Shown here: in pieces, positions 9,493 to 32,499 of the stretch
Position numbering within the stretch: the stretch's first letter is position 1
Layout: each line of letters opens with the position of its first letter
Source: Longimicrobium sp.
Lineage (GTDB): Bacteria > Gemmatimonadota > Gemmatimonadetes > Longimicrobiales > Longimicrobiaceae
Assembly (NCBI GenBank): GCA_036389795.1
Contig: DASVWD010000028.1
Location: 1 to 36,745 of the forward strand
Reading direction: 5' to 3'
DNA length: 36,745 nt
The notes under the pieces: generated by a model
Database searches by the model: none
The model's input: the letters and a program-made list of their open reading frames with translations, nothing else
Told to the model about the DNA's origin: nothing
Made by a program: the position numbers and the translations under genes

Positions 9493-9864
9493 ATGCAGCA
9501 GTACGCCGAGGCTTACCGCAACGACCCCGAGTTCAAGCAGAAGGCCGACGAGGTCGTCGCCCAGGTGCTGGTCCGCTCGTCGACCGACGCGGACTTCCGC
9601 CGCAAGCTGATCGAGAGCCCGGCCGAGGCGCTCGCCGAGTTCACCGGGACCGACGCCTCGCGCTTCGAGCACCTGAACATCGCCTTCGTCGAGAACACGG
9701 GAACCGCCACCATCGTGCTCCCGGAGCCGATCGGCCAGGCGGAGCTGTCGGAGAGCGAGCTGGAGGCGGTCGCGGGCGGCAGCGAGGTGGTCACCATCCT
9801 CGCCGTGGCCGGCCTGGCCGCCGCCTGCCTGGGCGCCCTCGCCGCCGGCATGTCGCTGGACTGA
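9493..9864 (+). CDS. NHLP-leader RiPP precursor B1
   Basis: 123 aa. The leader resembles the nitrile hydratase alpha subunit: VRSSTDADFRRKLIESPAEA, then NIAFVENTGTATIVLPEPIG, ending LSESELEAVAGG near residue 95. NHLP leaders of this kind are known to guide peptides to LanM-type or other modifying enzymes. The roughly 27-residue core is hydrophobic, VVTILAVAGLAAACLGALAA within it, with one Cys and few Ser/Thr. It looks more like a membrane-active helix than a ring-rich lanthipeptide. GGAGG is 7 nt before the ATG. Followed 57 nt later by the paralogue B2. Confidence 0.9.
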   Translation: MQQYAEAYRNDPEFKQKADEVVAQVLVRSSTDADFRRKLIESPAEALAEFTGTDASRFEHLNIAFVENTGTATIVLPEPIGQAELSESELEAVAGGSEVVTILAVAGLAAACLGALAAGMSLD

Positions 9865-9921: not shown

Positions 9922-10287
9922 ATGGACCGCAAGACCGTCGTCGAGATGATCCGGAACAACCCGGAGCTGGTGGAGCAGGGGCGCGAGCGCATGGAGGGTG
10001 TGCTCACCCGCTCCGCGACCGACCCGGAGTTCCGCACGCAGCTGCTCACCGAGCCCCGCGCCGCCCTGTCGTCGCACTTCGGGCACGAGGTGCCGGAAGG
10101 CATCGTGTTCATCGAGAACAAGGCCACGGCGACCATCGTCCTCCCCGACTTCGTCGATCCGTCGGCGGAGCTGTCGGAGAGCGAGCTGGAGGCGGTGGCG
10201 GGCGGCTCCGAGATCATCACCGCCATCGCCGTGGGCGTGGCGATCGGCTCGGCGCTCACCGTGATCGGCTACGAGCTGACCCACTGA
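9922..10287 (+). CDS. NHLP-leader RiPP precursor B2
   Basis: 121 aa, paralogue of B1. It has LTRSATDPEFRTQLLTEPRA and IVFIENKATATIVLPDFVDP in the leader, and LSESELEAVAGG identical to B1 just before the core. The 26-residue core (starting SEIITAIAVGVAIGSALTVI) is hydrophobic with Ser and Thr but no Cys at all, so it cannot form a lanthionine within itself. AGAGGCTCCC precedes the ATG. It is co-transcribed with B1, and a perfect 14-bp hairpin separates it from the downstream small membrane protein and LanM-1. Confidence 0.9.
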   Translation: MDRKTVVEMIRNNPELVEQGRERMEGVLTRSATDPEFRTQLLTEPRAALSSHFGHEVPEGIVFIENKATATIVLPDFVDPSAELSESELEAVAGGSEIITAIAVGVAIGSALTVIGYELTH

Positions 10288-10399: not shown

Positions 10400-10567
10400 A
10401 TGCCCCACCAGAAGTTGCTGGTCGCCGCCTGCGTGGCCGCGTTCGTGGCGTGCGCGGCCGCGCTGTGGGTGTCCCACGCCCGCACGCAGAGCTGGAACGC
10501 CGGACTGGTCCTCCTCGCGGCGACGGCGCTGCTGGCCGCCGCCACCCTGGGCCTGCGGCGCAGCTGA
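10400..10567 (+). CDS. Small two-helix membrane protein
   Basis: 55 aa. It starts MPHQKLLVAACVAAFVACAA and ends LLAAATLGLRRS. Two hydrophobic segments (about residues 5-23 and 35-50) are joined by a short polar loop HARTQSWN, with positive residues at both ends. GGAGAA lies 8 nt before the ATG, and the stop is 8 nt before the LanM-1 start, so it is translated within this cassette. No family recognised. A tiny membrane protein between bacteriocin-like precursors and their modifying enzyme is a reasonable candidate for immunity, but nothing in the sequence proves that. Confidence 0.65.
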   Translation: MPHQKLLVAACVAAFVACAAALWVSHARTQSWNAGLVLLAATALLAAATLGLRRS

Positions 10568-10575
10568 GCCCGCCC

Positions 10576-13500
10576 ATGCTCGCCTCCGCCCCCGCCCCCG
10601 CGGCGACGCCGGCCGACGACGCCCGGCGCGCCCTGCGCGACCTGGTCCGCCGCGCGCGCCCGCTGTACGAGCGCCTGGACGCCTTCCGTGCCCGCCCCCC
10701 CGCCTCCCCCGCCGCGCCGACGCCCCTGGCCGAGCGCCGGCTGGCCGCCTGGCGCGATGCGATGGCCAGCGGCGACGCCGCGGCGTTCGCCCTGCGCCTG
10801 GCGTGGGACGGCCTGGACGAGGCCTCGGCGCTGGCCCTGCTGGCCGACGACGGCCCCGCGGACGACGGGGACGAGCCGCTCCCGGAGTGGGCGGCCGCCG
10901 TGGGCGAGGCGTACGGGGAGGGGCGCGGCGCGCGCGTCCCGGCCGGGGAGCGCGCGCCGGCCGACCGCGCGCTCGACGCCGGCGATCCGCTCCCGTTCGA
11001 GGAAGTCCTCCTCCCGCTGGTGCGCTGGGCGCGCGCGCGGGTGGCGGCCGCGGCCGGCTCGGCCTGCGGCCTCCTGGACGACGCGGCCCACGCGGCGCTG
11101 GAGCGCGCCCTCCTGCGGCGCCTGACGCACACGGCGTCGCGGGCGCTCTTCGCGCGGCTGGCGGCCACGCGGGCCGTGCGCGCCTCGGGCGGGCTGGGGG
11201 CGCTCTTCGGCGCGCCGGCCGGCGGCGGCGCGTACCAGGCGCTCCTGGAGGGCATGCGCGGCGGCGGCGCGCTGCGCTTCTTCGCGCAGTATCCGGTGCT
11301 CGCGCGGCTGCTGGGGACCGCGGCGGTGCTGTGGGCCGAGACGGCGGCCGAGCTGCTCGGGCGCCTGGACGCCGACCGCGGCGAGATCGAGGCGGTGCTG
11401 GGAGGCGGGCGCGCGCTGGGGCGAGTGGCGGCGCTGCAGTGCGACGCCTCGGACTTCCACTCGGGCGGCCGCTCCGTCTTCATCCTCGCCTTCGAGGGCG
11501 GCGCGCGGGTGGTCTACAAGCCCCGCCCGCTGGCGCTGGAGGCGGCGTTCCGCGAGCTGGCCGCATGGCTGGCGCGCCGCCCCGGGGCCCCGGAGCTGCG
11601 CTCCCCCGCGCTGGTGCGGCGCCCCACCCACGGGTGGATCGCCTTCGTGGAGGGCGGCGCCTGCGCCGACCGCGCGGCGGTGCGGCGCTACTACGAGCGC
11701 TGCGGGGCGCTGCTGGCGGTGGCGTACGCGCTGGGCGGGACCGACTTCCACCTGGACAACCTGCTGGCGTCGGGCGAGCACCCGGTGCTGATCGACTTGG
11801 AGACGCTGCTGTCGCACCGCTTCGACCTGGTGGAGAAGGTCCCGAACCAGGCGTTCGGCGCCGAGGTGGCGCGGGCGGCGGCGCAGCGCTCGGTGCTGGC
11901 GGTGCACATGCTCCCGCGGCTGAAGGTGGCGGCCTCGGGAATGGGCGCCAACGCGGGCGCCCTGGGGTGCCATGCCCCGCTGGGCGACGGGGTGGTCGAG
12001 GCCACCGTCTGGGCCGCTTGCAACCAGGACGGGATGCGGCTGGCGCGCACGCGCGTCCGCGTTCCGCAGCGCGCGTCCAACCTGGCGGTGCTCGACGGCC
12101 GGCCGGTCCCCGCGGGGGAGCACGTGGACGCGGTGGCGGAGGGCTTCGCCCGCACCTACCGCACGCTGGCCGCGCACCGCGCCGAGCTGCTGGCGCCCGG
12201 AGGGCCGGTGGAGCGCCTGCGGGGGTGCCCGGTGCGCTTCATCCTGCACCACACCAGCCTGTACGCGACGCTCCTGGAGCGCTGCCTCCACCCCACCCAC
12301 CTGGCCGACGGGGTGGCGCGCGGGATCCAGCTCGACGCGCTCGCCCGGCCGCTGGTGAGCCTGGGCGCGCGGCCCGCCGTCTGGCCGGCGCTGCGCTCCG
12401 AGCACCACGACCTGGAGCGGATGGACGTCCCGCTCTTCGCGCCCTCGTCGGACTCCACGGCGCTCCCGCTCTCCAGCGGCGGCGCGGCGGAGGGATGCTT
12501 CGCGGCCGACGCCTACGGCGAGGCGGTGCGCCGCCTGGGCGCGCTGGGCGAGGCCGACCTGGAGGCGCAGCTGTCGCTCGTCCACGCGGCCTTCCGCGCC
12601 GACGCGGCGCGCGGGCTGGCGGCGGGTCCCGGCGCCTCTGCCGCCGCCGCCCCGCCCGTCCGCGCCTCCGGAGACGCCGCCGCGGAGCTGGCCGGGGCGG
12701 CGCTCGCCGGGGCGCGCGCGGTGGCCGCGGAGCTGGCGCGCGCGGCGCTGCGCGCCGAAAACGGCGAGGCGGGGTGGATCGGCGCGTCGTACGAGCCGCG
12801 GGCGCGCCGCTTCGACGCGGGGGCGGGCGCGGCCAACCTCCTCGACGGCTATGTGGGGACGGCGTTCTTCCTGGCCGCGCTGGAGCAGGCGGACCCGGGC
12901 GCCGGGCACGGCGCGCTGGCCATGGCCGCGCTGCGCCCGCTGGTGGACCACCTGGACGACTACGCGGCCATGTTCCGCCTGCGCCGCGACCGCGACCTGG
13001 GCGCCGGCACGGGGACGGGCTCGCTCCTCTACGCGCTCCCCCGCCTGGCGGAGTGGCTGGGCGAGCCGCGGCTGCTCGACGCGGCGCTCACCCTCGCCGC
13101 GCTCCTGGACGGGGCCCCCGCGCCCGCCGCGCACCGCTGCGACCTCCTGTCCGGCGCGGCGGGGCTGATCCCCGGCCTGCTGGCGCTGCACCGCGCCGGC
13201 GCCCCGGACGCCCTCGCGCGCGCCTTGGCCGTGGGAGAGGGGATCGTGGGCGCGAGGGTGTGCGACGAGGCGACCGGGACGATGGCGTGGACCGGTCCGC
13301 TCGGGCGGCCCGAGGCCGGGCTGGCGCACGGCCAGGCGGGGATCGCCTGCGCGCTGCTGCGCCTGGCCGTCGCCGCGGGCGACGACTCGCCGGCGGACGC
13401 GGCGCGCGAGGCGATGCGCTGCGAGCGCTCCCTGCTGGGGGCCGGTCTCGCCGCCGCGCCCGAGGCGTCGGCGGCGTGGAGCGCGGGCGCCACCGGCGTG

Positions 13501-13863
13501 GGGCTCGCCCGCCTGGCCGCGCTTGACGCGGACGGCGGCGAGGCGCGCGCGGACGTGGAGGCGGCGCTGGAGCGGACGCGCGCGCACCTCTTCGATGGCG
13601 GCGACTCGGCGTGCGCGGGGGTGCCGGGGCGGGTGGAGTTCTTCCTCTGCGCCGGGGCGGCGCTGGGGCGGCCGGAGCTGGTGCGCGAGGGGCAGGCCGC
13701 CGCGCTGGCGGCGGTGGAGCGGGCCCGCGCCCGCGGCGGGTGGCGCACCGGCTGGGAGCCGTTCTCCCACCCCGGGCTGTTCGTCGGCATGGCGGGCGTC
13801 GGCTACCAGCTCCTGCGCGCCGCGCACCCGGAGCGCTTTCCGGCGGTGCTGGCCTGGGAGTAG
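10576..13863 (+). CDS. lanM: LanM-type lanthipeptide synthetase 1, degenerate cyclase zinc site
   Basis: 1095 aa, start ATG 10576 eight nt after the small membrane protein. The N-terminal dehydratase keeps the kinase-like residues: YKPRPLALE (Tyr314-Lys315), DFHLDN (Asp390, His392, Asn395) and IDLE (Asp407, Glu409). VRFILHHTSLY retains the Arg...Thr pair linked to phosphate elimination in LanM enzymes. LanM normally phosphorylates and dehydrates Ser/Thr, then cyclises onto Cys. The C-terminal LanC-like part keeps the GLAHGQAG motif (about residue 916), but the usual WCHG reads WSAG (Trp968-Ser969-Ala970), and the usual C-[CH]-G reads CAG (Cys1013-Ala1014). Two of three zinc ligands are therefore absent, and cyclase activity is probably lost or altered. 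It shares a cassette with B1/B2, whose cores hold one and no Cys. Confidence 0.92.
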   Translation: MLASAPAPAATPADDARRALRDLVRRARPLYERLDAFRARPPASPAAPTPLAERRLAAWRDAMASGDAAAFALRLAWDGLDEASALALLADDGPADDGDEPLPEWAAAVGEAYGEGRGARVPAGERAPADRALDAGDPLPFEEVLLPLVRWARARVAAAAGSACGLLDDAAHAALERALLRRLTHTASRALFARLAATRAVRASGGLGALFGAPAGGGAYQALLEGMRGGGALRFFAQYPVLARLLGTAAVLWAETAAELLGRLDADRGEIEAVLGGGRALGRVAALQCDASDFHSGGRSVFILAFEGGARVVYKPRPLALEAAFRELAAWLARRPGAPELRSPALVRRPTHGWIAFVEGGACADRAAVRRYYERCGALLAVAYALGGTDFHLDNLLASGEHPVLIDLETLLSHRFDLVEKVPNQAFGAEVARAAAQRSVLAVHMLPRLKVAASGMGANAGALGCHAPLGDGVVEATVWAACNQDGMRLARTRVRVPQRASNLAVLDGRPVPAGEHVDAVAEGFARTYRTLAAHRAELLAPGGPVERLRGCPVRFILHHTSLYATLLERCLHPTHLADGVARGIQLDALARPLVSLGARPAVWPALRSEHHDLERMDVPLFAPSSDSTALPLSSGGAAEGCFAADAYGEAVRRLGALGEADLEAQLSLVHAAFRADAARGLAAGPGASAAAAPPVRASGDAAAELAGAALAGARAVAAELARAALRAENGEAGWIGASYEPRARRFDAGAGAANLLDGYVGTAFFLAALEQADPGAGHGALAMAALRPLVDHLDDYAAMFRLRRDRDLGAGTGTGSLLYALPRLAEWLGEPRLLDAALTLAALLDGAPAPAAHRCDLLSGAAGLIPGLLALHRAGAPDALARALAVGEGIVGARVCDEATGTMAWTGPLGRPEAGLAHGQAGIACALLRLAVAAGDDSPADAAREAMRCERSLLGAGLAAAPEASAAWSAGATGVGLARLAALDADGGEARADVEAALERTRAHLFDGGDSACAGVPGRVEFFLCAGAALGRPELVREGQAAALAAVERARARGGWRTGWEPFSHPGLFVGMAGVGYQLLRAAHPERFPAVLAWE

Positions 13864-13883: not shown

Positions 13884-14638
<755 letters not shown>

Positions 14639-15391: not shown

Positions 15392-15559
15392 TCAGTTGCC
15401 GGTGACGGCTTCGATGATGAGCTTGCCCAGCTCGATCTCGGCCTTGGCGAGGTCGATGAGCGCGTCGCCCAGGGTGCCGCCGGCCACCGACTCCAGCTCC
15501 GCCTCGTTCAGCTCGACCTCGGCGACGACCTCGGCCGCGCTCTGCTTGTTCTCCGACAT
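15392..15559 (-). CDS. RiPP precursor C2
   Basis: 55 aa. It begins MSENKQSAAEVVAEVELNEA, and the leader ends LNEAELESVAGG. The 27-residue core (TLGDALIDLAKAEIELGKLI then IEAVTGN) is an amphipathic helix by eye, with two Thr, no Ser and no Cys. AGGAGAG sits 5 nt before the ATG. Its own sigma-54 promoter and activator site lie upstream at 15697-15812. Because it has no Cys, it can at most be dehydrated, or may be exported unmodified. Confidence 0.82.
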   Translation of the reverse strand: MSENKQSAAEVVAEVELNEAELESVAGGTLGDALIDLAKAEIELGKLIIEAVTGN

Positions 15560-16202: not shown

Positions 16203-19200
16203 ATGCCGAGCACCTCCCCGACCCGTGCCCGCCGCTCCCGCCGCCCCCTCTCGCGCGCAGAGCTGGTGCGCATCGTGGAGCGCGCCGCCACCTTCGGCGA
16301 GCGGCTGGGCGGCGCCTTCGCTCCCGACGCCGACGCCGATCCCGCCGTCGCGCGGGCGCGGCTGGAGCGCTGGCGCCAGCTGGTGGCGCGCGGCGACGCG
16401 GAGCGCTTCGCGCGGCGGCTGGCGTGGGACGGGCTGGACGAGGCCGCCGCGCTCCGCGGCGTGGGCGAGGTGCGGCTGGCCCGCGGCGCGCGGCTCCCGG
16501 CCTGGGCGGCCGTGGTGGGCGAGGCGTCCGCGGCCGCGCCCGCCCTCACCCCCGCCGCGCTCGCGGCCGAGCCGCTGCTGGAGGTGGAGCCGCGCCTGCC
16601 GTTCGGCGAGCTGGCGCTCCCCTTCGTGCTGGCCGGGCGCCGGCGGCTCGCGGCGGCCGCCGGGGTCCACCACGCGCTCCTGGAGGCGCGGGCTCACCTG
16701 CAGTTCGAGCGCGCGCTCCTGCGCGCCCTGGCCGACTACGCCGAGCGCGCGCTGCACGCCGCCCGCGCCGCCTGGCGCGGCGGGCGCGGCGAGGCCGACG
16801 GCGCGCCCGAGGCGTTCGTGGCGGCCGCGCTGGCCGGCGGCCTGCGCGAGGTGTTCGGGCGCTACCCCGTGCTGGCGCGCCTGCTGGCGGAGCGGACGCT
16901 CGCCTGGGTGGAGGCCGCCGCCGAGCTGCTCGCCCGCCTGACGGCCGACCGCGGCGCGCTCGCCGCGGCCTTCGGCGGCGGCGGCGACCCCGGCCCGGTG
17001 GCGGACGCGCGGGCCGGGCTCTCGGACCCGCACGCCGGGGGGCGCACGGTGGCGATCCTGCGCTTCGCGTGCGGGACCACCGCGGTCTACAAGCCCCGCC
17101 CGCTCGCGGCGGAGCGCGCCTTCGCGGCGCTGGTGGACTGGCTGAACGCCGCGGGAGGGGAGCCGGCGCTCCGGCCGCTCCGGGTGCTGGACCGCGGCGG
17201 CTACGGGTGGACGGAGTACGTGGCGCACGCCGACTGCGCCGACCCGGCGGCGGTGGAGCGGCACCGCGTGCGCGCGGGGAAGCTGCTCTGCCTGATGTAC
17301 CTGCTCTCCGGCCAGGACCTGCACCACGAGAACCTGATCGCCGTCGGGGAGCACCCGGTGCTCATCGACCTGGAGGTGCTGCTGCGCGCCGCCACCCGCG
17401 ACGAGGGGGTGGGCGAGCCCGTGCAGGCCCGCTTCTGGGACGGGATGCAGCACTCCGTGATGGCCGCCGGGCTCCTCCCGCAGCTCCACGGCCGTCCGGA
17501 CGGCTCCACCTTCGCCGGGGGCGGCTTCGTCGCCAGCGACCTGGACCCGGGCCGCGCGAACGTCGCCACCCTGGCCGGCGCGCCCGCCCCCGGCGACCCC
17601 GCCGCCCCGGTGGAGCGCGGCTTCCGCGACATGTTCCGCACCCTGCAGAAGAGGCGCGCCGAGCTGCTGGCGCCCGGCGGGCCGCTGGAGGCGTTCCGCG
17701 CCAACCGGGTGCGGGTGATCCTGCGCTCCACCTCCGTCTACGGCTCGCTCCTGCAGCGCACGCTCACCCCGCGCTTCCTGGAGTGCGGCGTGGAGCGCAG
17801 CGTGGAGATCGACGTCCTGGTGCGCCCCGCGCTGCGCCGGCCCGAGCGGCCCCGGCTGTGGCCCGCCTTCCGCGACGAGGCGGCCGCCCTGCACGGCATG
17901 GACGTTCCGTCGTTCCACATGGGGGTCGGCGCCACCGCGCTCCCCACCGCCGCCGGCGAGGTCCCCGACTTCGCGGAGGAGCCGGGGCTCGCGCGCGCGG
18001 CCGCCCGGCTGGCGGCCCTCGACGCGGCCGAGCGGGAGCGCCAGGCGCACTGCGTCCGGGTGGCCTTCACCGGGCACCGGCTGCGGCGGGAGTGGGCCGA
18101 GCGCGCCCGCGCGGCCGGCGCCGCGCCGAGCGCGCCCGCAGCGGAGGCGCTCGGCGCGGCCCGCGAGGTCGCGCGCTGGCTGGAGTCGCTGGCGGTGCGC
18201 GGCGCGGGCGGCCCCGCCTGGCTGGCGCTGCACGACGGGGCCGCGGAGCTCGTCGGCCCCGGGCTGGCGCACGGCCGCGCCGGGATCGGGCTCTTCCTGG
18301 CCGCGCTGGCGGCGGTGGGCGGCGAGGCGCGCCACCGCCGCCTGGCGCTCGAGACGCTGGCCCCGCTCGCCGCCGCGGCGGGCGACCCCCGCGCCCTGGC
18401 GCGGCTCAGGGCGAAGCTCGGCCTGGGCGCCGCGGCGGGGATCGGCGGGGTCGCGTACGGGCTGCTCCGGGCGGGGACGCTCCTGGACGAGCCGCCGCTG
18501 GTGGAGGCCGCCCGGCGCGCCGCGGCCGCCGTGACCCGGCGGGCTGCCGCCGCCGCGGGCGAGCCGGACGTCTTCTCGGGCGCGGCCGGCGCGCTGCTGG
18601 CGCTCCTGGCGGTGCACGAGGCCACCGGCGACGCCCTGGCGCTGGAGCGGGCCGGCGACTGCGCGCGGCGCCTGCTGGCGGCCCGCGCGGCCGACCCGGC
18701 GACCGGGCTGCGCGCCTGGCCGCGCGCGGACGGACGGCTGGGGACGGGCTTCGGCCACGGCGCGGCGGGGATCGCGTACGCGCTGCTGCGGCTGCACGGG
18801 CACACGGCAGAGCCGGCCCTGGCCGAGGCGGCGGCCGAGGCGCACGCGTTCGAGGCCACGCTCTACCGGGAGGAGCTGGGGAACTGGCTGGACCACGCCG
18901 GGCAGCGCGGCGCCGCGCCCGCCGCCGACCTCCTCTGCGCCTGGTGCCACGGCGCCGCGGGGGTGGGACTGGGCCGCGCCGCCGCGCCGGGCGCGCTCGC
19001 CGGCCCGGGCGCGCGGGCGGACCTGGAGCGCGCGCTCGCCGCCGCCGCTCGGGCGAAGCCCGGCGGCCCCGCCACCCTCTGCTGCGGCGGCATGGGGCGC
19101 GCCGAGCTCCTGCTCTCGGCCGGACGGGCGCTCGGGCGCCCCGAGCTGGCGGAGCGCGCGCGCGAGCTGGGGCGCGAGGTGGCGCAGGGGGCGGCGCGGC

Positions 19201-19334
19201 GGGGCACCTTCGGCCACGCCACGCTGGACAGCGCCTTCACGCCGGGGCTGTTCCAGGGCGCGTCCGGGATCGGGTACCAGCTCCTGCGCCTGCACCACCC
19301 CGACCGTCTCCCCTCCGTCCTGCTCTGGGAGTAG
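16203..19334 (+). CDS. lanM: LanM-type lanthipeptide synthetase 2, intact cyclase
   Basis: 1043 aa from the first ATG at 16203; no good ribosome site is visible, so the true start may differ slightly. Dehydratase motifs are intact: YKPRPLAAE (Tyr296-Lys297), DLHHEN (Asp372, His374, Asn377), IDLEVL, and VRVILRSTSVY. Cyclase motifs are intact: GFGHGAAG (about 849), AWCHGAAG (Cys915) and LCCGGMG (Cys960-Cys961). The CCG form gives three cysteine zinc ligands instead of Cys-Cys-His, as in the ProcM-like group known for handling many different precursors. That suits a locus with numerous unlike cores. The fully functional site contrasts with LanM-1. It is flanked by precursors C1/C2 (minus) and D1-D3 (plus). 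Confidence 0.93.
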   Translation: MPSTSPTRARRSRRPLSRAELVRIVERAATFGERLGGAFAPDADADPAVARARLERWRQLVARGDAERFARRLAWDGLDEAAALRGVGEVRLARGARLPAWAAVVGEASAAAPALTPAALAAEPLLEVEPRLPFGELALPFVLAGRRRLAAAAGVHHALLEARAHLQFERALLRALADYAERALHAARAAWRGGRGEADGAPEAFVAAALAGGLREVFGRYPVLARLLAERTLAWVEAAAELLARLTADRGALAAAFGGGGDPGPVADARAGLSDPHAGGRTVAILRFACGTTAVYKPRPLAAERAFAALVDWLNAAGGEPALRPLRVLDRGGYGWTEYVAHADCADPAAVERHRVRAGKLLCLMYLLSGQDLHHENLIAVGEHPVLIDLEVLLRAATRDEGVGEPVQARFWDGMQHSVMAAGLLPQLHGRPDGSTFAGGGFVASDLDPGRANVATLAGAPAPGDPAAPVERGFRDMFRTLQKRRAELLAPGGPLEAFRANRVRVILRSTSVYGSLLQRTLTPRFLECGVERSVEIDVLVRPALRRPERPRLWPAFRDEAAALHGMDVPSFHMGVGATALPTAAGEVPDFAEEPGLARAAARLAALDAAERERQAHCVRVAFTGHRLRREWAERARAAGAAPSAPAAEALGAAREVARWLESLAVRGAGGPAWLALHDGAAELVGPGLAHGRAGIGLFLAALAAVGGEARHRRLALETLAPLAAAAGDPRALARLRAKLGLGAAAGIGGVAYGLLRAGTLLDEPPLVEAARRAAAAVTRRAAAAAGEPDVFSGAAGALLALLAVHEATGDALALERAGDCARRLLAARAADPATGLRAWPRADGRLGTGFGHGAAGIAYALLRLHGHTAEPALAEAAAEAHAFEATLYREELGNWLDHAGQRGAAPAADLLCAWCHGAAGVGLGRAAAPGALAGPGARADLERALAAAARAKPGGPATLCCGGMGRAELLLSAGRALGRPELAERARELGREVAQGAARRGTFGHATLDSAFTPGLFQGASGIGYQLLRLHHPDRLPSVLLWE

Positions 19335-22263: not shown

Positions 22264-23370
22264 ATGATCTCGCTGGCCGACACCTTGGACACGCTCTCGG
22301 CCCACTTCCCCGCCGCGCTGCTGCCGCCGGAGGAGTACGCGGCCGCGCGCGCGGCGGCCGCCGCGCTCCCGGCCGCGCTCACCCGCTGGACCTACCTGGA
22401 GTGCCGCCTCGGCGGCCGCCCCGCCCCCGTCGACGTGATCGTCGAGGTCGACGCCGCGGGGCGCGAGATCATCACCGGCGCCAACCCCGCGCTGGCGCTC
22501 CCCCCCGGCCTGGCCGCCGCCCCCGCGTGGGAGCGGGTGGCCGGGCTCTGCCGCCGCTGGGCCGACCCCGCCGACCCGCTGCACCCCTGGGTCGACTCGC
22601 TCTGGCTGGAGTTCGACGTGGACCCGCGCGCCGGGGGGGCGCCGCCGCTGCCCGGCGTGTTCGTGGCCTTCACCCCCGCCGCCTTCGGCACCGGCACGGC
22701 CGGCGAGCGGAGCGCGCGCACCGAGGCCGCGCTGGAGGCGCTCCTCGGAGGAGCGCTCGACCCCGCCCGGCGCGCCGCGCTCCGGCGCGTCTACCGCTGC
22801 CTCCCCGGGGGCGCCACCGTCCTCTACGCCGGCTGCCTCCTGCCGCGCGGCACCCGCGCGCTCAGGGTGTGCCCGGTGGAGGTGAGCGCGCGCGACCTCC
22901 CGGCCTTCCTGCGCGCCGCCGGCTGGCCGGGGCCGTACGCCCCCCTCGAGGCCGCGCTGGCACAGCTGAGCGCCGTGCGCGAGGGCGCCCCCGCGCGCGA
23001 CGCCGCGCTGGTGCACCTGGACCTGGACGCCGGCGGCGTCCTCGGCCGGCTGGGGCTGGAGTACGTCTTCGGCCGGCGCACGCAGGTGCGCGGGGAGATC
23101 TGCGAGGCCGCGTTCCTGGACCACCTGGTGGGCGCCGGCCTGTGCACGGCGCAGGAGCGCGACGCCATGGCCGCCTTCCCCGGCGCGGCGCGCGAGCAGC
23201 TCCCGCACGAGCTGTGGAAGAGCCTGGTGGTGCGGCGCGTCAACCACGTGAAGCTGGTGTTCGACGCCGGCCGCGTGGAAGCCAAGGCCTACCTCTGCCT
23301 GCACAACCGCTTCCTCCCCCGCCGCCCGGCCCCCTCCCCCGCCGCCGCGCCCGAGCTCGCCGCGGTCTGA
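22264..23370 (+). CDS. Unknown 368-aa protein behind precursor E2
   Basis: 368 aa, soluble, no signal peptide or membrane segment. Starts MISLADTLDTLSAHFPAALL. Distinctive stretches are WTYLECRLGGRPAPVDVIVE, HPWVDSLWLEFDVD, VFVAFTP, DAALVHLDLDAGG, GLEYVFGRR and HELWKSLVVRRVNHVKLVFD, the last followed by an AKAYLCLHNR end. I do not recognise the family and see no catalytic motif. It most likely shares the sigma-54 transcript of E2 and so may be a modifying, partner or immunity protein for it. Codon use equals the neighbours. Confidence 0.78.
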   Translation: MISLADTLDTLSAHFPAALLPPEEYAAARAAAAALPAALTRWTYLECRLGGRPAPVDVIVEVDAAGREIITGANPALALPPGLAAAPAWERVAGLCRRWADPADPLHPWVDSLWLEFDVDPRAGGAPPLPGVFVAFTPAAFGTGTAGERSARTEAALEALLGGALDPARRAALRRVYRCLPGGATVLYAGCLLPRGTRALRVCPVEVSARDLPAFLRAAGWPGPYAPLEAALAQLSAVREGAPARDAALVHLDLDAGGVLGRLGLEYVFGRRTQVRGEICEAAFLDHLVGAGLCTAQERDAMAAFPGAAREQLPHELWKSLVVRRVNHVKLVFDAGRVEAKAYLCLHNRFLPRRPAPSPAAAPELAAV

Positions 23371-23488: not shown

Positions 23489-23569
23489 CCTTGCCGCTTC
23501 CGGCGCAGATGGCCCCGGCATGGCGCCGACACCCCTGTCGGCCCTCCGGATTGGAAGACCCGCGCGGCC

Positions 23570-23597
23570 CGTAGAGCCCCCGCTCTACCGGGTAGAG
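23570..23597 (+). promoter_or_regulatory. Upstream activator site 8
   Basis: GTAGAG, N6, CTCTACC, G, GGTAGAG: the most complete copy, all three half-sites perfect apart from the first base. Centre 23590, 93 nt before the -24 position at 23683. Confidence 0.75.
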
Positions 23598-23681
23598 CCG
23601 GGACGCCGCCAGCCCCGGCCCCGGCGCAGCGTCCAGCCCCACAAATCCATCCACGACAAACACTTGGAGAGACAGGCGCCC

Positions 23682-23698
23682 GTGCACGGCGCTTGCTT
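23682..23698 (+). promoter_or_regulatory. Sigma-54 -24/-12 promoter 8 (export operon)
   Basis: GTGCACGGCGCTTGCTT; TG at 23683-23684 replaces GG, GC at 23695-23696. ACTTGGA at 23662 starts 21 nt upstream. Predicted start about 23708, 43 nt before the first gene of the export operon. Confidence 0.7.
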
Positions 23699-23750
23699 TT
23701 CCCCGGGCCGACAGACGGTTCACCCCCACCCCCGGAGTCTGGAGCACCCG

Positions 23751-24077
23751 ATGTCCTCCTCGAAGATGAGCGAGAAGCTGCTCGAGCAGGTCGTGCATCG
23801 CGCGGGCACCGACCGCGCGTTCCGCCAGCAGCTCCTCGCCGACCCCGCCGGCGCCATCCACGGCGCGTACGGCGTGGCGCTCCCCGCCGGCTTCCGCATC
23901 AGGTTCGTGGAGAAGGACCCCGCGTTCGACGTGGTGGTCGTGCTCCCCGAGCTGTGCGGCGGCGACGACGAGCTGTCGGACGACGACCTGGAGAAGGTCG
24001 CCGGCGGCACCCTGCAGTACTGGAACGACGACGCGCCGCCCCCGCCGTCCGATCCGCCTCCCCCGCCTCCCCCCTGA
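23751..24077 (+). CDS. NHLP-leader precursor F1 with polyproline tail
   Basis: 108 aa. NHLP-type leader: VVHRAGTDRAFRQQLLADPA, FRIRFVEKDPAFDVVVVLPE, then LSDDDLEKVAGG. The 22-residue core is TLQYWNDDAPPPPSDP followed by six more prolines, with no Cys, one Ser and one Thr. Such a tail cannot form thioether rings. It may be a structural spacer, a degenerate core, or a scaffold leader. TCTGGAG lies 7 nt before the ATG. It is the first gene of the export operon. Confidence 0.85.
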   Translation: MSSSKMSEKLLEQVVHRAGTDRAFRQQLLADPAGAIHGAYGVALPAGFRIRFVEKDPAFDVVVVLPELCGGDDELSDDDLEKVAGGTLQYWNDDAPPPPSDPPPPPPP

Positions 24078-25933: not shown

Positions 25934-27193
25934 ATGGAAAACCGAGTCTTCCGCAAGGTGTCGCTGGACCGGCTCTCCTCGCCCGAGCAGCTCGACCAAG
26001 TGATGCAGGTGACCAACCCCCGCGGCTGGCTGGCGCTGGCCGGCCTGGGCGCGCTGCTGGTGATGGCGATCATGTGGGGCGTCTTCGGCTCCCTCTCCGA
26101 GAAGGTGGCCGGCGGCGGGATCCTGCTCAAGAGCGGCGGCGTCTTCGAGGTGGTCTCGCCCGCCGAGGGGCGCGTCACCGACGTCTCCGTGAGCGTGGGC
26201 GACAGCGTGACCGAGGGGCAGGTGGTGGCGTGGATCGCCCAGCCCGAGCACTCGGCCCGCCTGCAGGAGGCCAAGGCCCGGCTGGCGGCGCTGCGCGCCG
26301 AGTACCAGCGCACCCTGTCCTTCAGCGGCAACGACGCCCAGCTGCAGGCCCAGAGCGTGGGCGAGCAGCGCCGCAACCTGCAGCAGTCGATCGCCGCCGA
26401 GGAGCAGACGCTGCGCTGGCTCACCGAGCGGGTGCAGAGCCAGGAGAAGCTGGTGGAGCAGGGGCTCGTCACCCGCGGCGCCCTGCTGCAGACCCGCCAG
26501 CAGCTGGAGCAGTCGCAGGAGAAGATCCGCTCCGGGCGCAGCCAGCTGGCGCAGCTCGACGTGCAGAAGCTCTCCTCCGACAACGACCGCTCCCGCCAGC
26601 TCGCCGCCCACCGCCGCGAGATCCAGCTGGCCGAGCTGGAGCTGGCGCAGCTGGAGCGCGACCTCCGCCGCGCCTCGCAGGTGGTCTCGCCCTACACCGG
26701 GCGCATCCTGGAGTTGATGACCGAGCAGGGGAAGATGGTGGGGCGCGGCGAGCCCGTCCTGAACCTGGACCTCACCGGCAGCTCGGTGAAGAACCTGATG
26801 GCGGTGATCTACGTCCCCTCGATGCACGGCAAGAAGGTGAAGCCGGGGATGGAGATCCAGATCGCCCCCTCCACGGTGCGGCAGGAGGAGTTCGGGATGA
26901 TGCTGGGGAAGGTGACCTTCGTCTCCAACTTCCCCGCCACCCCGCGCGGCATGGCCATGACGCTCAAGAACGACCAGCTGGTGCAGGGCCTCTCCGGCAA
27001 CGGCGCCCCCTACGAGGTGCACGCCGACCTGATCGTGGACCCCGCCACCGTGAGCCGCTACCGCTGGTCGTCCTCCGGCGGCCCCCCGGTCGAGATCCAG
27101 AGCGGCACCCTGGCCAGCGGCCAGGTCACCGTCGACCGCCAGCGCCCCCTGGCCGCGGTGCTCCCGCTGCTGCGCCGCTGGTCGGGGATGTAA
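25934..27193 (+). CDS. NHLP bacteriocin system secretion protein (HlyD-like adaptor)
   Basis: 419 aa. MENRVFRKVSLDRLSSPEQL, then one transmembrane segment about residues 35-57 (LALAGLGALLVMAIMWGVFG). A barrel-sandwich half follows (GGVFEVVSPAEGRVTDVSVS), then a long coiled coil about 110-250 rich in Gln/Arg/Leu, and the second half (PYTGRILELMTEQGKMVGRG). The C-terminal beta domain ends near LLRRWSGM. This is the layout of the NHLP-associated HlyD family (TIGR03794 type). It is the periplasmic adaptor between the inner-membrane ABC exporter and the TolC-like channel; genes lie in that order 72 and 96 nt apart. Confidence 0.9.
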   Translation: MENRVFRKVSLDRLSSPEQLDQVMQVTNPRGWLALAGLGALLVMAIMWGVFGSLSEKVAGGGILLKSGGVFEVVSPAEGRVTDVSVSVGDSVTEGQVVAWIAQPEHSARLQEAKARLAALRAEYQRTLSFSGNDAQLQAQSVGEQRRNLQQSIAAEEQTLRWLTERVQSQEKLVEQGLVTRGALLQTRQQLEQSQEKIRSGRSQLAQLDVQKLSSDNDRSRQLAAHRREIQLAELELAQLERDLRRASQVVSPYTGRILELMTEQGKMVGRGEPVLNLDLTGSSVKNLMAVIYVPSMHGKKVKPGMEIQIAPSTVRQEEFGMMLGKVTFVSNFPATPRGMAMTLKNDQLVQGLSGNGAPYEVHADLIVDPATVSRYRWSSSGGPPVEIQSGTLASGQVTVDRQRPLAAVLPLLRRWSGM

Positions 27194-27289: not shown

Positions 27290-29539
27290 ATGCCACTGGC
27301 GAGCATCACGCGCCGTCACTGGGGGAGGCTGAAGCTTCCGCCCTGGCTCCGCCCGGCGCCCCCCGAGGCGGCCGCAGCCCCCGCGAAGTGGGTGCGCACC
27401 CCCACCATCCTGCAGATGGAGGCGGTGGAGTGCGGCGCCGCCTCGCTGGCCATGATCCTGGCCCACCACGGGCGCTACGTGCCGCTCGAGGAGCTGCGCG
27501 TGGCGTGCGGCGTCTCGCGCGACGGGAGCAAGGCCAGCAACCTGCTCAAGGCCGCGCGCGGCCTGGGGCTCGTGGCCAAGGGGTTCAAGAAGGAGCCCAA
27601 CCAGCTCCGCCCTCTCCCCATGCCGGCCATCGTGCACTGGAACTTCAACCACTTCCTGGTGCTCGACGGGTTCCACAAGGGGCAGGTGCGCATCAACGAC
27701 CCCGCCCAGGGGCCGCGCGTGATCTCGGAGGAGGAGTTCGACCAGTCGTTCACCGGCGTGGTGATGACCTTCGAGAAGGGCGAGGACTTCCAGGCGGGCG
27801 GCCGCCGGAGGGGGCTCCTGGGCACGCTGGCCCCGCGGCTCAGGGGCTCGCGGCTGGCGCTGCTCTTCGTGATCCTGGCCGGGCTGTCGCTGGTGGTCCC
27901 CGGGCTCGTGGTCCCCACCTTCTCGCGCGTCTTCGTCGACAGCGTGCTGGTGAAGGGGCTCACGGCGTGGCTGCGCCCCCTCCTGATCCTGATGGCGCTC
28001 ACCGGCGTGGTGCAGGCGGTGCTCACCTTCCTGCAGCAGCGCTACCTGCTCCGGCTGGAGACCAAGGTGGCGCTCTCCACCTCGGCCACCTTCTTCTGGC
28101 ACGTGCTGAGGCTGCCCATCACCTTCTTCAACCAGCGCTTCGCCGGCGAGATCGGCGGCCGCGTGGCGATCAACGACAAGGTGGCGCGCCTGCTCTCGGG
28201 CGAGCTGGCCACCACGGTGCTGAACTTCGTCGTGATCGCCTTCTACGCCCTGATGATGGTGCAGTACGACGTGTGGCTGACGCTGCTGTCGGTGACGATC
28301 GTGGCGCTCAACATGGTGGTGCTCAAGGTGATGTCGCGCCGCCGGGTGGACCTCACCCAGCGGATGCTGCAGGACGGCGGGAAGATGATGGGCACCGCCA
28401 TGGGCGGGCTGCAGACGATCGAGAGCCTCAAGGCCACCGGGAGCGAGTCGGACTTCTTCGCCCGCTGGAGCGGCTACCAGGCCAAGGTGATCAACGCCGG
28501 CCAGCAGATCTCGCTCACCAGCCAGGTGCTGGCGCAGGTCCCCCAGTTCCTCCTCTCGCTCAACACCGCGCTGCTCCTGGGCTTCGGGGGCTCGAGGGTG
28601 ATGGACGGCCACCTGAGCATGGGGATGCTGATGGCGTTCCAGGCGCTCATGCTGGCGTTCGTGAACCCGGTCAACCGGCTGGTGAGCCTGGGCGGCACCC
28701 TGCAGGAGGTCAAGGGCGACATGGACCGCCTGGACGACGTGCTGCTGGCCCGCCCCGACCGGCGCGCCGTGGCGGCGGCCGACGAGGGCGAGCTGGCGGA
28801 GGACGGCCCCCCGGTGAAGCTCTCCGGCTTCCTGGAGCTCAAGCACGTCACCTTCGGCTACTCGCCGCTGGACCCGCCGCTGATCGAGAACTTCAACCTG
28901 ACGCTCAGGCCCGGCAGCCGCGTGGCGTTGGTGGGGGGCTCGGGGTGCGGCAAGAGCACCGTCAGCAAGCTGGTGTCGGGGCTCTACGAGCCGTGGTCGG
29001 GCGAGATCCTCTTCGACGGGAAGAGCCGCGACGAGATCCCGCGCGGCGTGCTGGCCAACTCGCTGGCCATCGTCGACCAGGAGATCTTCATGTTCGAGGG
29101 GACGATCCGCGACAACGTGACGCTCTGGGACGCCACCGTCCCCGAGGCCGAGCTGCTGCAGGCCGCCCGCGACGCCTGCATCCACGACGAGGTCGCCTCG
29201 CGCCCCGGCGGCTACGCGAGCCCGGTGGAGGAGGGGGGCACCAACTTCAGCGGCGGGCAGCGCCAGCGCCTCGAGATCGCCCGGGCGCTGGCGGGCAACC
29301 CCACCATGCTGGTGCTCGACGAGGCCACCAGCGCGCTGGACCCGGCCACCGAGAAGACGATCGACGACAACCTGCGCCGCCGCGGCTGCACCTGCCTGAT
29401 CGTGGCGCACCGGCTCTCCACCATCCGCGACTGCGACGAGATCATCGTGCTGCACCAGGGCAAGATCGTGCAGCGCGGCACGCACGAGCAGCTCGCCGCC
29501 CAGCCCGGCTACTACAGCCGGCTGATCGCCTCCGAGTGA
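27290..29539 (+). CDS. NHLP-family ABC exporter with C39 leader peptidase
   Basis: 749 aa. The N-terminal C39 peptidase has the catalytic triad: MEAVECGAASLAMILAHHGR (Cys48), HWNFNHFLVLDGF (His121) and INDPAQG (Asp137). It cuts leaders after Gly-Gly. A six-helix ABC permease domain spans about residues 180-470. The nucleotide-binding domain has GGSGCGKST (about 550), NFSGGQRQRLE (about 652), LVLDEATSALD (about 674) and the AHRLSTI switch. This is the TIGR03796-type peptidase/permease/ATPase and the clear candidate for processing all the VAGG/VSGG leaders in the window. Its TGA overlaps the next start (TGATG), implying translational coupling. Confidence 0.95.
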   Translation: MPLASITRRHWGRLKLPPWLRPAPPEAAAAPAKWVRTPTILQMEAVECGAASLAMILAHHGRYVPLEELRVACGVSRDGSKASNLLKAARGLGLVAKGFKKEPNQLRPLPMPAIVHWNFNHFLVLDGFHKGQVRINDPAQGPRVISEEEFDQSFTGVVMTFEKGEDFQAGGRRRGLLGTLAPRLRGSRLALLFVILAGLSLVVPGLVVPTFSRVFVDSVLVKGLTAWLRPLLILMALTGVVQAVLTFLQQRYLLRLETKVALSTSATFFWHVLRLPITFFNQRFAGEIGGRVAINDKVARLLSGELATTVLNFVVIAFYALMMVQYDVWLTLLSVTIVALNMVVLKVMSRRRVDLTQRMLQDGGKMMGTAMGGLQTIESLKATGSESDFFARWSGYQAKVINAGQQISLTSQVLAQVPQFLLSLNTALLLGFGGSRVMDGHLSMGMLMAFQALMLAFVNPVNRLVSLGGTLQEVKGDMDRLDDVLLARPDRRAVAAADEGELAEDGPPVKLSGFLELKHVTFGYSPLDPPLIENFNLTLRPGSRVALVGGSGCGKSTVSKLVSGLYEPWSGEILFDGKSRDEIPRGVLANSLAIVDQEIFMFEGTIRDNVTLWDATVPEAELLQAARDACIHDEVASRPGGYASPVEEGGTNFSGGQRQRLEIARALAGNPTMLVLDEATSALDPATEKTIDDNLRRRGCTCLIVAHRLSTIRDCDEIIVLHQGKIVQRGTHEQLAAQPGYYSRLIASE

Positions 29540-32499
29540 TGACGCACCCGACCTCCCCGACCGCAGGTCCCGACGTGAGCGCGACCACCCCTCCCGACTT
29601 CCTGGCCGCGGGCGCCGCCGAGTTCGAGGCCGGCAGCGACCGCCCCTTCCTCCTGGCCGGCGCCAGCGCCTGGCTGGTCACGGCCGGCCGCGTCGACGTC
29701 TTCGCCGTGCCGCTCGCGGGCGGCCTTCCGGCGGGAAGCCGCACCCACCTCTTCCGCGCCGGGGCGGGGCAGCTCGTCTTCGGCACCGGCGCGGGCGAGG
29801 GCGCCGCCGTGGGGCTCCTGGCGGTGGGCTCGCCCGGCACCCGGGTGGCGCCGGTGGAGCGGCGCGTGCTGCGCGCCGCCGCCATGGACCCGGCGCGCTC
29901 CGGGGCGCTGGCCGGCCTCCTCGACGAGTGGGTGGACCTGCTCTGCGCCGCCGTGGGGCGCGGCGTGGCCCCCGACGGGTGCGCCGAGGTGAGCCCCGAG
30001 GCGCCCGACCTCCCGCAGGGCGTGCGCTACGTGCGCCCGGGGCGCCGGGTGGCGTGGGTGCGCCACCTGGACGGCGCCTCCTTCCTGCTGGGGCGCGAGG
30101 GGCTCAAGCTGAACGGCGACTTCACCCCGCTGGCGAAGAGCGCCTGGATGGAGGTGCAGGGGAGCTGCCGCCTGGACCTGCAGGAGACCGCGGCCGTGCT
30201 GGGGCGCGGCGACGCCTGGGAGGGGCTGGAGCGGCTGCACGCCCTGGTGCTGGAGTGCGTGGCCCGCATGGCCGCCGAGGCCGCCCGGGCCGAGCGCGAG
30301 CGGCTGCGCGAGAAGGCCGCCGCCGGGCGCGGCGCCTTCCAGGGCGCCGTGGGGCGGCTGGCCACCACGCTCGAGGCCGGCGCCCCCGCGCGGATGCGGC
30401 TCAGAGCCGCGGCCGCCGGCGGCGCGTCCGACGACCCGCTCCTCTGCGCCGCCCGCCTGGTGGGCGCGGCGCTGGGGGTGGCGGTGCACCCCTACCCGCG
30501 CGAGAAGGGCGCCCCCGCCCCGCGCGACCCGCTGGGGGCGCTGGCCCGCGCCTCGCGCACCCGCACCCGCCAGGTGGTGCTGCGCGAGGGGTGGTGGAGG
30601 GAGGACGGCGGCCCGCTCCTGGCCTACCTGGCCGAGGACGGCCGCCCGGTGGCGCTCCTCCCCGCGCGGGGGACGCGCTACACCCTGCACGACCCGCGGG
30701 AGCGCGGCGAGGCGGCCCTGGTCGACGCCGCCCTGGCCGACCGGGTGAAGCCGATCGCCTTCACCTTCTACCGCCCCTTCTCCGACCAGGCGCTCGGGCT
30801 GAAGGACGTGGTGCGCTTCGGGCTGCAGGGGTGCGGGCGCGACCTGGGGATGGTGCTGGGCTTGAGCGTGGCCGCCGCGCTCCTGTCGCTGGTGACCCCG
30901 ATGGCCACGGGGAAGATCTTCAACGACATCATCCCCGGCGCCGAGCGGGGGCAGCTGGGGCAGCTCACCGCCGCGCTGGTGGTGATCGCGCTGGCCACCA
31001 TGCTCTTCCGGCTGGGCGCCGGGGTGGCGCTGGTGCGCATCGAGGGCCGCATGGGCTCGGCCACCCAGGCCGCGGTGTGGGACCGGGTGCTGGGGCTGCC
31101 GATGCCGTTCTTCCGCCCCTACTCGGCCGGCAACCTGGCCAGCCGCGCCATGGGGATCGACGCCATCCGCCAGCACCTCTCCGGCGCCACCATCCAGGCG
31201 CTCCTGGGCGGGCTCTTCTCGGTGGTGCACTTCGGGCTGCTCTACCACTACTCGCCGCGGCTGGCGCTGTGGGGGACGGGGCTGATCGCGCTCTCCATCG
31301 CCGTCACGGCGGGCGCCAGCCGGCTGCAGATGAAGAGCGAGAACCAGATCGCCGCGCTGCGCACGAAGCTCTCGGGCTCGGTGCTGCAGTTCCTCTCCTC
31401 CATCGCCAAGCTGCGCACCGCCGCGGCCGAGGGGGAGGCGTTCTCGATCTGGGCGAAAGGCTTCAGCGAGCAGCGCCAGCTGCAGTTCCGCGCCCGCTCC
31501 ATCGGCAACCTGGTGGCCTCGTTCAACGCCGGCTACCCGGTGGTCACCACGCTGGTGCTGTACGCGGTGGCGCTGCCGCTCATGAGCGGCGACCACCCGC
31601 TGCGCACCGGCGACTTCATGGCCTTCATGACCTCGTTCGCCACCTGCCTGGGAGGGATGCTGGGCGCCTCGGCGGCGCTCCTGGGGGCCATGGCGGTGGT
31701 GCCGATGTACGAGCAGGCGCGCCCGATCCTGGAGACGCTCCCCGAGGTCGACACCGCCAAGGCCGACCCGGGCGCGCTCTCGGGCGGCATCGACATCGAG
31801 CGGGTGGTGTTCCGCTACAACCCCGACGGCCCCCCGATCCTGCGCGACCTCACCATGCGCATCAGGCCGGGCGAGTTCGTGGCCTTCGTGGGCCCCTCGG
31901 GGTCGGGGAAGAGCACGCTGCTCCGCCTCCTGCTGGGCTTCGAGGCGCCCGAGTCGGGCGCGGTCTACTACGACGGGCGCGAGCTGGCCGGCCTCGACGC
32001 GCAGGCGGTGCGCCGCCAGATCGGGGTGGTGCTGCAGAACGGGCGGCTGATGTCGGGCGACATCTTCACCAACATCGCCGGCAGCTCCCCCGCCACGCAG
32101 GAAGACGCCTGGGAGGCGGCGCGCATGGCCGGCTTCGACGAGGACATCAAGGCCATGCCGATGGGGATGCACACCGTGGTCAGCGAGGGCGGCGGCACCC
32201 TCTCGGGCGGCCAGCGCCAGCGGCTGATGATCGCGCGCGCCATCGTGCAGCGCCCGCGCATCCTCTTCTTCGACGAGGCCACCAGCGCGCTCGACAACCG
32301 CACCCAGGCGATCGTCACCCAGAGCCTGGACCGCCTGAACGCCACCCGCGTGGTGATCGCGCACCGCCTCAGCACCATCCTGAACGCCGACCGCATCTAC
32401 GTGATCGAGGCCGGCCGCATCGTGCAGGCCGGCACCTACCACGAGCTGATCCGCCAGGACGGGCTCTTCGCCGAGCTGGCGAAGCGGCAGCTGGCCTGA
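29539..32499 (+). CDS. NHLP-family ABC transporter permease/ATPase, no peptidase
   Basis: 986 aa. The first 280 residues hold a cyclic-nucleotide-binding-like beta domain (SDRPFLLAGASAWLVTAGRV, DVFAV) and a helical linker; there is no C39 Cys/His site. A long middle part leads to membrane helices from about residue 430. The ATPase has GPSGSGKSTLL (about 785), TLSGGQRQRLMIARA (about 888), LFFDEATSALD (about 908) and AHRLSTI. This matches the second NHLP ABC protein (TIGR03797 type), which accompanies the peptidase-bearing one, perhaps as a heterodimer. It starts at the overlapping TGATG and ends at TGA 32499. Confidence 0.93.
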   Translation: MTHPTSPTAGPDVSATTPPDFLAAGAAEFEAGSDRPFLLAGASAWLVTAGRVDVFAVPLAGGLPAGSRTHLFRAGAGQLVFGTGAGEGAAVGLLAVGSPGTRVAPVERRVLRAAAMDPARSGALAGLLDEWVDLLCAAVGRGVAPDGCAEVSPEAPDLPQGVRYVRPGRRVAWVRHLDGASFLLGREGLKLNGDFTPLAKSAWMEVQGSCRLDLQETAAVLGRGDAWEGLERLHALVLECVARMAAEAARAERERLREKAAAGRGAFQGAVGRLATTLEAGAPARMRLRAAAAGGASDDPLLCAARLVGAALGVAVHPYPREKGAPAPRDPLGALARASRTRTRQVVLREGWWREDGGPLLAYLAEDGRPVALLPARGTRYTLHDPRERGEAALVDAALADRVKPIAFTFYRPFSDQALGLKDVVRFGLQGCGRDLGMVLGLSVAAALLSLVTPMATGKIFNDIIPGAERGQLGQLTAALVVIALATMLFRLGAGVALVRIEGRMGSATQAAVWDRVLGLPMPFFRPYSAGNLASRAMGIDAIRQHLSGATIQALLGGLFSVVHFGLLYHYSPRLALWGTGLIALSIAVTAGASRLQMKSENQIAALRTKLSGSVLQFLSSIAKLRTAAAEGEAFSIWAKGFSEQRQLQFRARSIGNLVASFNAGYPVVTTLVLYAVALPLMSGDHPLRTGDFMAFMTSFATCLGGMLGASAALLGAMAVVPMYEQARPILETLPEVDTAKADPGALSGGIDIERVVFRYNPDGPPILRDLTMRIRPGEFVAFVGPSGSGKSTLLRLLLGFEAPESGAVYYDGRELAGLDAQAVRRQIGVVLQNGRLMSGDIFTNIAGSSPATQEDAWEAARMAGFDEDIKAMPMGMHTVVSEGGGTLSGGQRQRLMIARAIVQRPRILFFDEATSALDNRTQAIVTQSLDRLNATRVVIAHRLSTILNADRIYVIEAGRIVQAGTYHELIRQDGLFAELAKRQLA

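Follow-up and report, generated by a model that had tools for sequence, protein, structure and literature searches.

The LanM-1 locus

The window analysed here is a stretch of 36,745 nucleotides from Longimicrobium sp. (phylum Gemmatimonadota; assembly GCA_036389795.1, contig DASVWD010000028.1, positions 1 to 36,745 of the forward strand). It carries a gene for a class II lanthipeptide synthetase-like protein, LanM-1, downstream of two precursor genes, B1 and B2. The state of the cyclase zinc site of LanM-1, and the kind of peptide the enzyme may make from B1 and B2, are the subject of this study. The features concerned are:

9493..9864, + strand: precursor B1, NHLP-type leader of 96 aa ending in VAGG and a hydrophobic core of 27 aa (TIGR03793)
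9922..10287, + strand: precursor B2, NHLP-type leader of 95 aa ending in VAGG and a hydrophobic core of 26 aa (TIGR03793)
10576..13863, + strand: LanM-1, class II lanthipeptide synthetase-like, 1095 aa (family models, AlphaFold2 model, fold matches)
12235..12255, + strand: phosphate-elimination residues R554 and T560, corresponding to R506 and T512 of CylM, retained (alignment)
13327..13329, + strand: retained His918 in the LAHGQAG motif, where LanC-type cyclases have their catalytic acid (alignment)
13477..13488, + strand: WSAG in place of WCHG, residues 968-971, with Ser969 at zinc ligand 1 (alignment)
13612..13620, + strand: CAG in place of C-[CH]-G, residues 1013-1015, with ligand 2 (Cys1013) retained and Ala1014 at ligand 3 (alignment)

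LanM-1 is encoded by an uninterrupted open reading frame (ORF; ATG at 10576, stop at 13861-13863) and scores 639 bits with the LanM model TIGR03897, above the curated cut-off of 304. A dehydratase domain at about residues 233-622 (361.6 bits with PF13575, DUF4135) is followed by a LanC-like domain at about 700-1095 (113.8 bits with PF05147, LanC-like cyclase).

The zinc site of LanMs consists of Cys, Cys and His or Cys, while the corresponding columns of LanM-1 read Ser, Cys and Ala, so that two of the three ligands are lost and one Cys is left. In the 74 zinc-intact LanMs aligned, columns 969 and 1013 are Cys without exception, column 1014 is Cys or His, and the His918 column is always His. 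Since the anchor residues around both motifs are retained (W968, G971, G974, G1015 and G1018, together with H918), the motif columns are not misaligned, and an error of the assembly is improbable, as Cys is likewise missing from column 969 in three independent relatives (Ser, Ser and Ala). Comparison with the sequences of its clade mates made no replacement zinc ligand apparent in the cyclase domain. Among these relatives there is no conservation of the candidates C855, C896, C925, C949, C1025, H1065 and others; H872 is conserved there, yet intact LanMs likewise have His or Tyr at this position.

Alignment of LanM-1 to CylM and LicM2 mapped ten dehydratase residues, all of which are present. 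D252, H254, K274, D347 and H349 of CylM correspond to D293, H295, K315, D390 and H392 of LanM-1, and N352, D364, E366, R506 and T512 to N395, D407, E409, R554 and T560. In CylM, phosphate elimination requires D252, H254, R506 and T512, and D347, N352 and D364 are among the residues needed for phosphorylation (PMC4550811).

An AlphaFold2 model of LanM-1 built from 23 LanMs has a mean predicted local distance difference test score (pLDDT) of 86 and a predicted template modelling score (pTM) of 0.88. The modelled full chain matches LicM2 with Z 37.8 over 870 residues (root mean square deviation, rmsd, 5.4), and its C-terminal part matches NisC with Z 31.2 over 344 residues (rmsd 3.0). According to the model the cyclase barrel is retained and the clearest changes are at the active site; outside the zinc site, LanM-1 keeps most of the positions that are conserved in intact LanMs.

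The B1 core (SEVVTILAVAGLAAACLGALAAGMSLD) contains one Cys and three Ser/Thr, the B2 core (SEIITAIAVGVAIGSALTVIGYELTH) no Cys and five Ser/Thr, and Cys partners for rings are therefore absent from B2 and limited to a single one in B1. Both precursors score below the TIGR03793 cut-off of 50.9 bits, B1 with 43.7 bits (E 1.9e-11) and B2 narrowly with 50.5 bits (E 1.3e-13). A preliminary description of this DNA had already placed WSAG and CAG at residues 968-971 and 1013-1015, with two ligands gone, beside intact dehydratase motifs and cores with one and no Cys. Its reading of the residues is confirmed by the alignment, and the conserved Cys and His residues provide no evident alternative ligand nearby.

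Relatives of LanM-1

Searching 395 genomes of the window's phylum with LanM-1 at E 1e-20 gave matches in 18. The closest relatives, L004/L028 in genome G029 (42% identity) and L005/L029 in genome G243 (39%), have no zinc site either. Another 80 loci from GTDB genomes were found with an alignment query, while LanM-1 alone as query gave none. The 108 LanM ORFs were classified as intact (74), zinc-lost (17), without cyclase domain (9), with zinc ligands but no acid His (3), or cut by contig ends (5). The nine without cyclase domain include L104, a frame split with the cyclase in the next frame, and L015, a broken copy; L052, L074, L105 and L113 are dehydratase-only enzymes.

In a tree of the dehydratase domain, LanM-1, L028, L029 and L030b (the second LanM of genome G144) form one clade, in which all members are zinc-degenerate (ultrafast bootstrap, UFBoot, 97; approximate likelihood ratio test, aLRT, 89; SH 0.94). 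Ligand loss is uneven across this clade, and L029 has also lost the acid His. The sister group consists of the first, intact LanM of G144 and a second LanM of the window:

16203..19334, + strand: LanM-2, with intact zinc site (WCHG, CCG) (family model, alignment)

Therefore the window and G144 share an arrangement of paired intact and zinc-degenerate LanMs. A second zinc-less clade comprises L019, L138 and L139. Further zinc losses are found in a group from Kordia, Flavobacteriia, Alteromonas and Sphingomonas, in a cyanobacterial group with WSHG and CNG, and in L034.

Cys content of the precursor cores

The NHLP-type precursors of the LanM-1 clade have hydrophobic cores with 0-1 Cys (B1 and B2, three in L028, four in L029 and three in L030b). 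In the second zinc-less clade, L138 and L147 (a locus of the genome that also carries L139) encode hydrophobic cores of 18-20 residues without any Cys. The core in L136, next to a LanM without acid His, is likewise hydrophobic and free of Cys. For L052, L074 and L019 no precursors were found with a GG pattern or the NHLP model. At least two Cys occur in none of the 16 cores of the LanM-1 clade, the second clade and L136, but in 20 of the 30 that accompany intact LanMs (p about 6e-6; Mann-Whitney test by locus, p = 0.001). These p values are descriptive, since the groups were picked after viewing the tree and gene contents, precursors inside one locus are related to each other, and cores were assigned to LanMs by hand.

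All three ligands are lost in L091 (7287-7487, Flavobacteriia metagenome-assembled genome, MAG) and L094 (7572-7775, Alteromonas), which have a lacticin-481-like core with three Cys (SSGWICTISGECNGGQSC). These loci are the opposite case to LanM-1 and suggest zinc-free cyclisation. The LanM of L097 (79-12206 of JAQWBM010000052.1, Eubacteriales MAG) has Tyr in place of the acid His. Numerous precursors next to it have cores without Cys that consist largely of Ala, Val, Ser and Thr (e.g. LSPEAIISLASATAASAVSATATAVSATATAVSASVAIASAAASALVSAS); their products may be peptides with many dehydrated residues or with D-amino acids.

LanJA-type reductases

A medium-chain dehydrogenase is encoded beside the LanM in L028, L029, L138, L139, L136, L019, L052 and L074, the last two being cyanobacterial loci with dehydratase-only LanMs. 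Over about 350 aa, these proteins share 30-34% identity with LtnJ of lacticin 3147 (E about 1e-50; the cut copy in L019, 31% over 303 aa), compared to about 21-27% over comparable lengths for two generic medium-chain dehydrogenases of the window genome (short local matches up to 33%), and are therefore of the LanJA type. Of the known LanJA reductases (LtnJ of lacticin 3147, NpnJA, RodJA), LtnJ has ring-forming LanMs with intact zinc sites as partners, whereas the reductases among the relatives of LanM-1 accompany a cyclase-degenerate LanM. Most of the sister enzymes have such a reductase, which the preliminary description of this DNA does not mention.

LanJA lies beside 8 of 29 cyclase-dead LanMs and none of 72 intact ones (p = 2e-5). 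The count of 72 excludes the lacticin plasmid, an added reference in which LanJA does adjoin intact LanMs; the 29 include L104 and L015, both without LanJA, so that their exclusion would only strengthen the association. When 390 genomes of the phylum were searched with LanJA as the starting point, six had one, and in all six its direct neighbour was a degenerate LanM. By genome, LanJA is present in six of the eight with a degenerate LanM and in none of the eight with only intact LanMs (p = 0.007). The window genome (98% complete) has no LanJA match at E 1e-50 and only generic matches of 24-28%, which sets its cluster apart from the LtnJ systems and the sister clusters. G144 likewise gave none at E 1e-50 in the phylum search, nor in the flanks read. 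In the open-licence literature we found no description of a cyclase-degenerate LanM paired with LanJA.

Discussion

We consider it probable that LanM-1 works as a dehydratase and keeps its cyclase half as a folded scaffold that has lost the cyclase function, and that linear peptides with dehydroalanine (Dha) and dehydrobutyrine (Dhb) are made from B1 and B2. Export genes of the NHLP type are located near the precursors:

25934..27193, + strand: NHLP bacteriocin system secretion protein, HlyD type (TIGR03794, above cut-off)
27290..29539, + strand: NHLP bacteriocin export ABC transporter with peptidase, leader cut expected after GG (TIGR03796, 1128 bits, above cut-off)
29695..32499, + strand: second ABC transporter subunit of the export system (ABC_tran, ABC_membrane)

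We infer the chemistry of LanM-1, as well as any biological activity; B1 and B2 are its presumed substrates from their adjacency and common leader type. LanM-1 would bind the NHLP leaders of both, phosphorylate Ser and Thr of the cores and then eliminate phosphate to yield Dha and Dhb. Given the loss of zinc ligands 1 and 3 and cores that offer at most one Cys, no (methyl)lanthionine would be formed. The TIGR03796 transporter-peptidase would cleave after the Gly-Gly of VAGG, and linear, hydrophobic, dehydrated peptides would be exported. Since both cores start with Ser, an N-terminal pyruvyl cap is possible: if Ser1 is dehydrated, cleavage would give an N-terminal Dha that could hydrolyse to pyruvyl, in analogy to polytheonamide, where PoyF acts as the dehydratase of Thr1 and cleavage is followed by hydrolysis of the enamine (PMC9505594). 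In the sister clusters LanJA probably converts Dha (perhaps also Dhb) to D-Ala (or D-aminobutyrate, D-Abu), while the product of the window should stay dehydrated because its genome has no LanJA.

The preliminary description called such a route not typical of LanM. Atypical it is, but the principle of dehydration without cyclisation is already documented or predicted elsewhere. As cited in PMC11356792, zinc-ligand mutants of LctM keep dehydration with cyclisation poor or lost (Paul 2007). According to a prediction by Haft et al. (2010), NHLPs without Cys that occur next to LanM remain dehydrated, and Walker et al. set LanM-associated precursors without Cys aside (PMC7268733). In the account given in PMC11356792, the LanM of Pseudanabaena galeata CCNP1313 (OA858_24670) resembles LanM-1 in lacking zinc ligands beside a Cys-free precursor. 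It differs in its cyanobacterial host, the Nif11-type precursor and the loss of all three ligands (Ala, Met and Trp at CylM positions 875, 911 and 912), and LanJA is not reported in that account.

CcaM (LanMbC, dehydrazoles) also dehydrates without forming lanthionine (PMC10676384), but its cyclase domain is of the class III type, and it depends on azoles that a YcaO makes. By its model scores LanM-1 belongs to class II; it reaches only 27 bits with the class III model (cut-off 575), which places it outside the LanMbC class, and a scan covering part of the window's ORFs found no YcaO. PoyF acts on core Thr1 of an NHLP precursor and resembles LanM-1 in LanM-type dehydration without cyclisation (PMC9505594), yet it has no cyclase domain and its cluster contains other maturases. 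EmbM of phospeptin biosynthesis, LanM-type and with a Cys-free precursor as at LanM-1, differs by its missing cyclase domain, reportedly altered elimination-critical residues and phosphorylated product. LanM-1, in which the cyclase fold is present, is not a dehydratase-only enzyme like these two.

Several observations weigh against a purely dehydrating LanM-1. Replacement ligands were judged on the sequence level alone, and with Cys1013 and His918 still present a weakened zinc site is possible. B1 retains one Cys, LanM-2 with its intact zinc site shares the cluster, and Ser/Thr are scarce in both cores (three in B1, five in B2). Class III cyclase domains, which have no zinc ligands, still cyclise (PMC10301443; PMC10604976). 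Moreover, core Cys content showed no difference when all zinc-lost or cyclase-lacking LanMs of the sample were compared to intact ones (p = 0.28), because L091, L094, L057, L068, L081 and L034 keep 3-4 Cys; the zinc-less LanMs with such Cys-rich cores come from Alteromonas, a Flavobacteriia MAG and several cyanobacteria. The simple rule that zinc loss means no Cys thus failed across all cyclase-dead loci, and zinc loss alone is no proof of ring loss. The suggestion that enzyme and substrates have moved together away from thioether rings holds within the LanM-1 clade and the second clade (0/16 versus 20/30), but not as a general rule.

Residual LanM-1 activity, a non-enzymatic reaction or LanM-2 acting in trans might still make a thioether ring on the single Cys of B1, as would suit the retained Cys1013 and His918, the intact LanM-2 within the cluster and zinc-less LanMs with Cys-rich cores elsewhere (e.g. 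SSGWICTISGECNGGQSC in L094). We regard this as unlikely. A ring cannot be formed on B2, which has no Cys, and would not account for both substrates; the cores of the whole LanM-1 clade have 0-1 Cys, and zinc mutants of LctM are cited to lose cyclisation (Paul 2007, in PMC11356792).

Slightly less likely again is that the dehydratase has come to include the zinc-less domain, e.g. for substrate positioning as in CcaM, whose zinc-free cyclase domain is required for dehydration (PMC10676384). The retained fold (NisC Z 31.2) and the mostly conserved positions outside the zinc site agree with such a role, which is compatible with linear dehydrated products and would add a reason for fold retention. 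However, dehydratase-only LanMs exist (L052, L074, L105 and L113), and the excised dehydration domains of CylM, HalM2 and NukM are cited in PMC10676384 as active alone.

That LanM-1 halts at phosphorylation and yields phosphopeptides seems very unlikely, although EmbM, a LanM-type dehydration domain without cyclase, acts on a Cys-free precursor (PMC9259500). D293, H295, R554 and T560 are all found in LanM-1, while EmbM is described as altered at elimination-critical residues; since all ten mapped dehydratase residues are present, we set a kinase-only enzyme aside. Decay to a pseudogene that modifies nothing, to which the uneven ligand loss over the clade and the missing acid His of L029 might point, is the least credible explanation in view of the full ORF, the complete set of dehydratase residues, a state common to four genomes and the precursor cassettes kept upstream.

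Returning to LanM-1 as a dehydratase on a cyclase scaffold, the recurrent cyclase loss and its pairing with LanJA are more interesting than the dehydration by LanM-1 itself. Tentatively, and with slightly more doubt than conviction, we propose that LanMs repeatedly abandoned ring formation and now produce peptides that are linear, hydrophobic and for the most part free of Cys, with a dedicated LanJA reducing their dehydrated Ser and Thr to D-Ala or D-Abu. They would represent a recurrent thioether-less type of ribosomally synthesised and post-translationally modified peptide (RiPP), with the LanM-1 branch keeping Dha and Dhb and a second, ring-forming LanM, as in G144. If this is true, a ring-forming family has dropped its second reaction, with enzyme and substrate changing together, and the LanJA pairing offers a testable reason, as D-amino acids could replace rings in the protection against proteases. 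Many clusters with NHLP and LanM would then not be lanthipeptide clusters, which calls for caution in genome mining, and possible dehydratases or dehydratase-reductase pairs would be at hand to install Dha or D-Ala in linear peptides.

Other genes of the cluster

Between B2 and LanM-1 lies a further small gene:

10400..10567, + strand: hydrophobic protein of 55 aa (no family match in model scans)

A function as immunity protein is only a guess. Next to the zinc-intact LanM-2, a precursor on the minus strand (15392-15559) has a Cys-free core (TLGDALIDLAKAEIELGKLIIEAVTGN), and low Cys content is therefore not confined to LanM-1 within the cluster.

The 368-aa protein encoded at 22264-23370 has no Pfam or NCBIfam match and belongs to a LanM-cluster family of no assigned function. 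Eleven further LanM loci of the set, from the window's phylum, cyanobacteria and myxobacteria, have members with 24-45% identity to the window protein. L138 and L139 have a member beside a cyclase-dead LanM. The cyanobacterial clusters L052 (3845-9971) and L074 (578-9941) combine a member with LanJA and a dehydratase-only LanM, and also carry a second unassigned protein of about 605 aa.

Proline-rich, Cys-free cores on NHLP-type precursors occur in three LanM clusters: the window (23520-24077, TLQYWNDDAPPPPSDPPPPPPP), L030 (11585-11932, TQTDDPSNFIWSDPSPPPPPPPGGGNDGP) and L138 (357-740, DSGDWAPPPPPPGGP). Between LanM-1 and LanM-2, the sequence at 13990-14060 (GAACCGGACGTGCGGATTTCCCGCATCCGGCTCTCC) resembles the 3' part of bacterial group II introns, and we take it to be probably a remnant.

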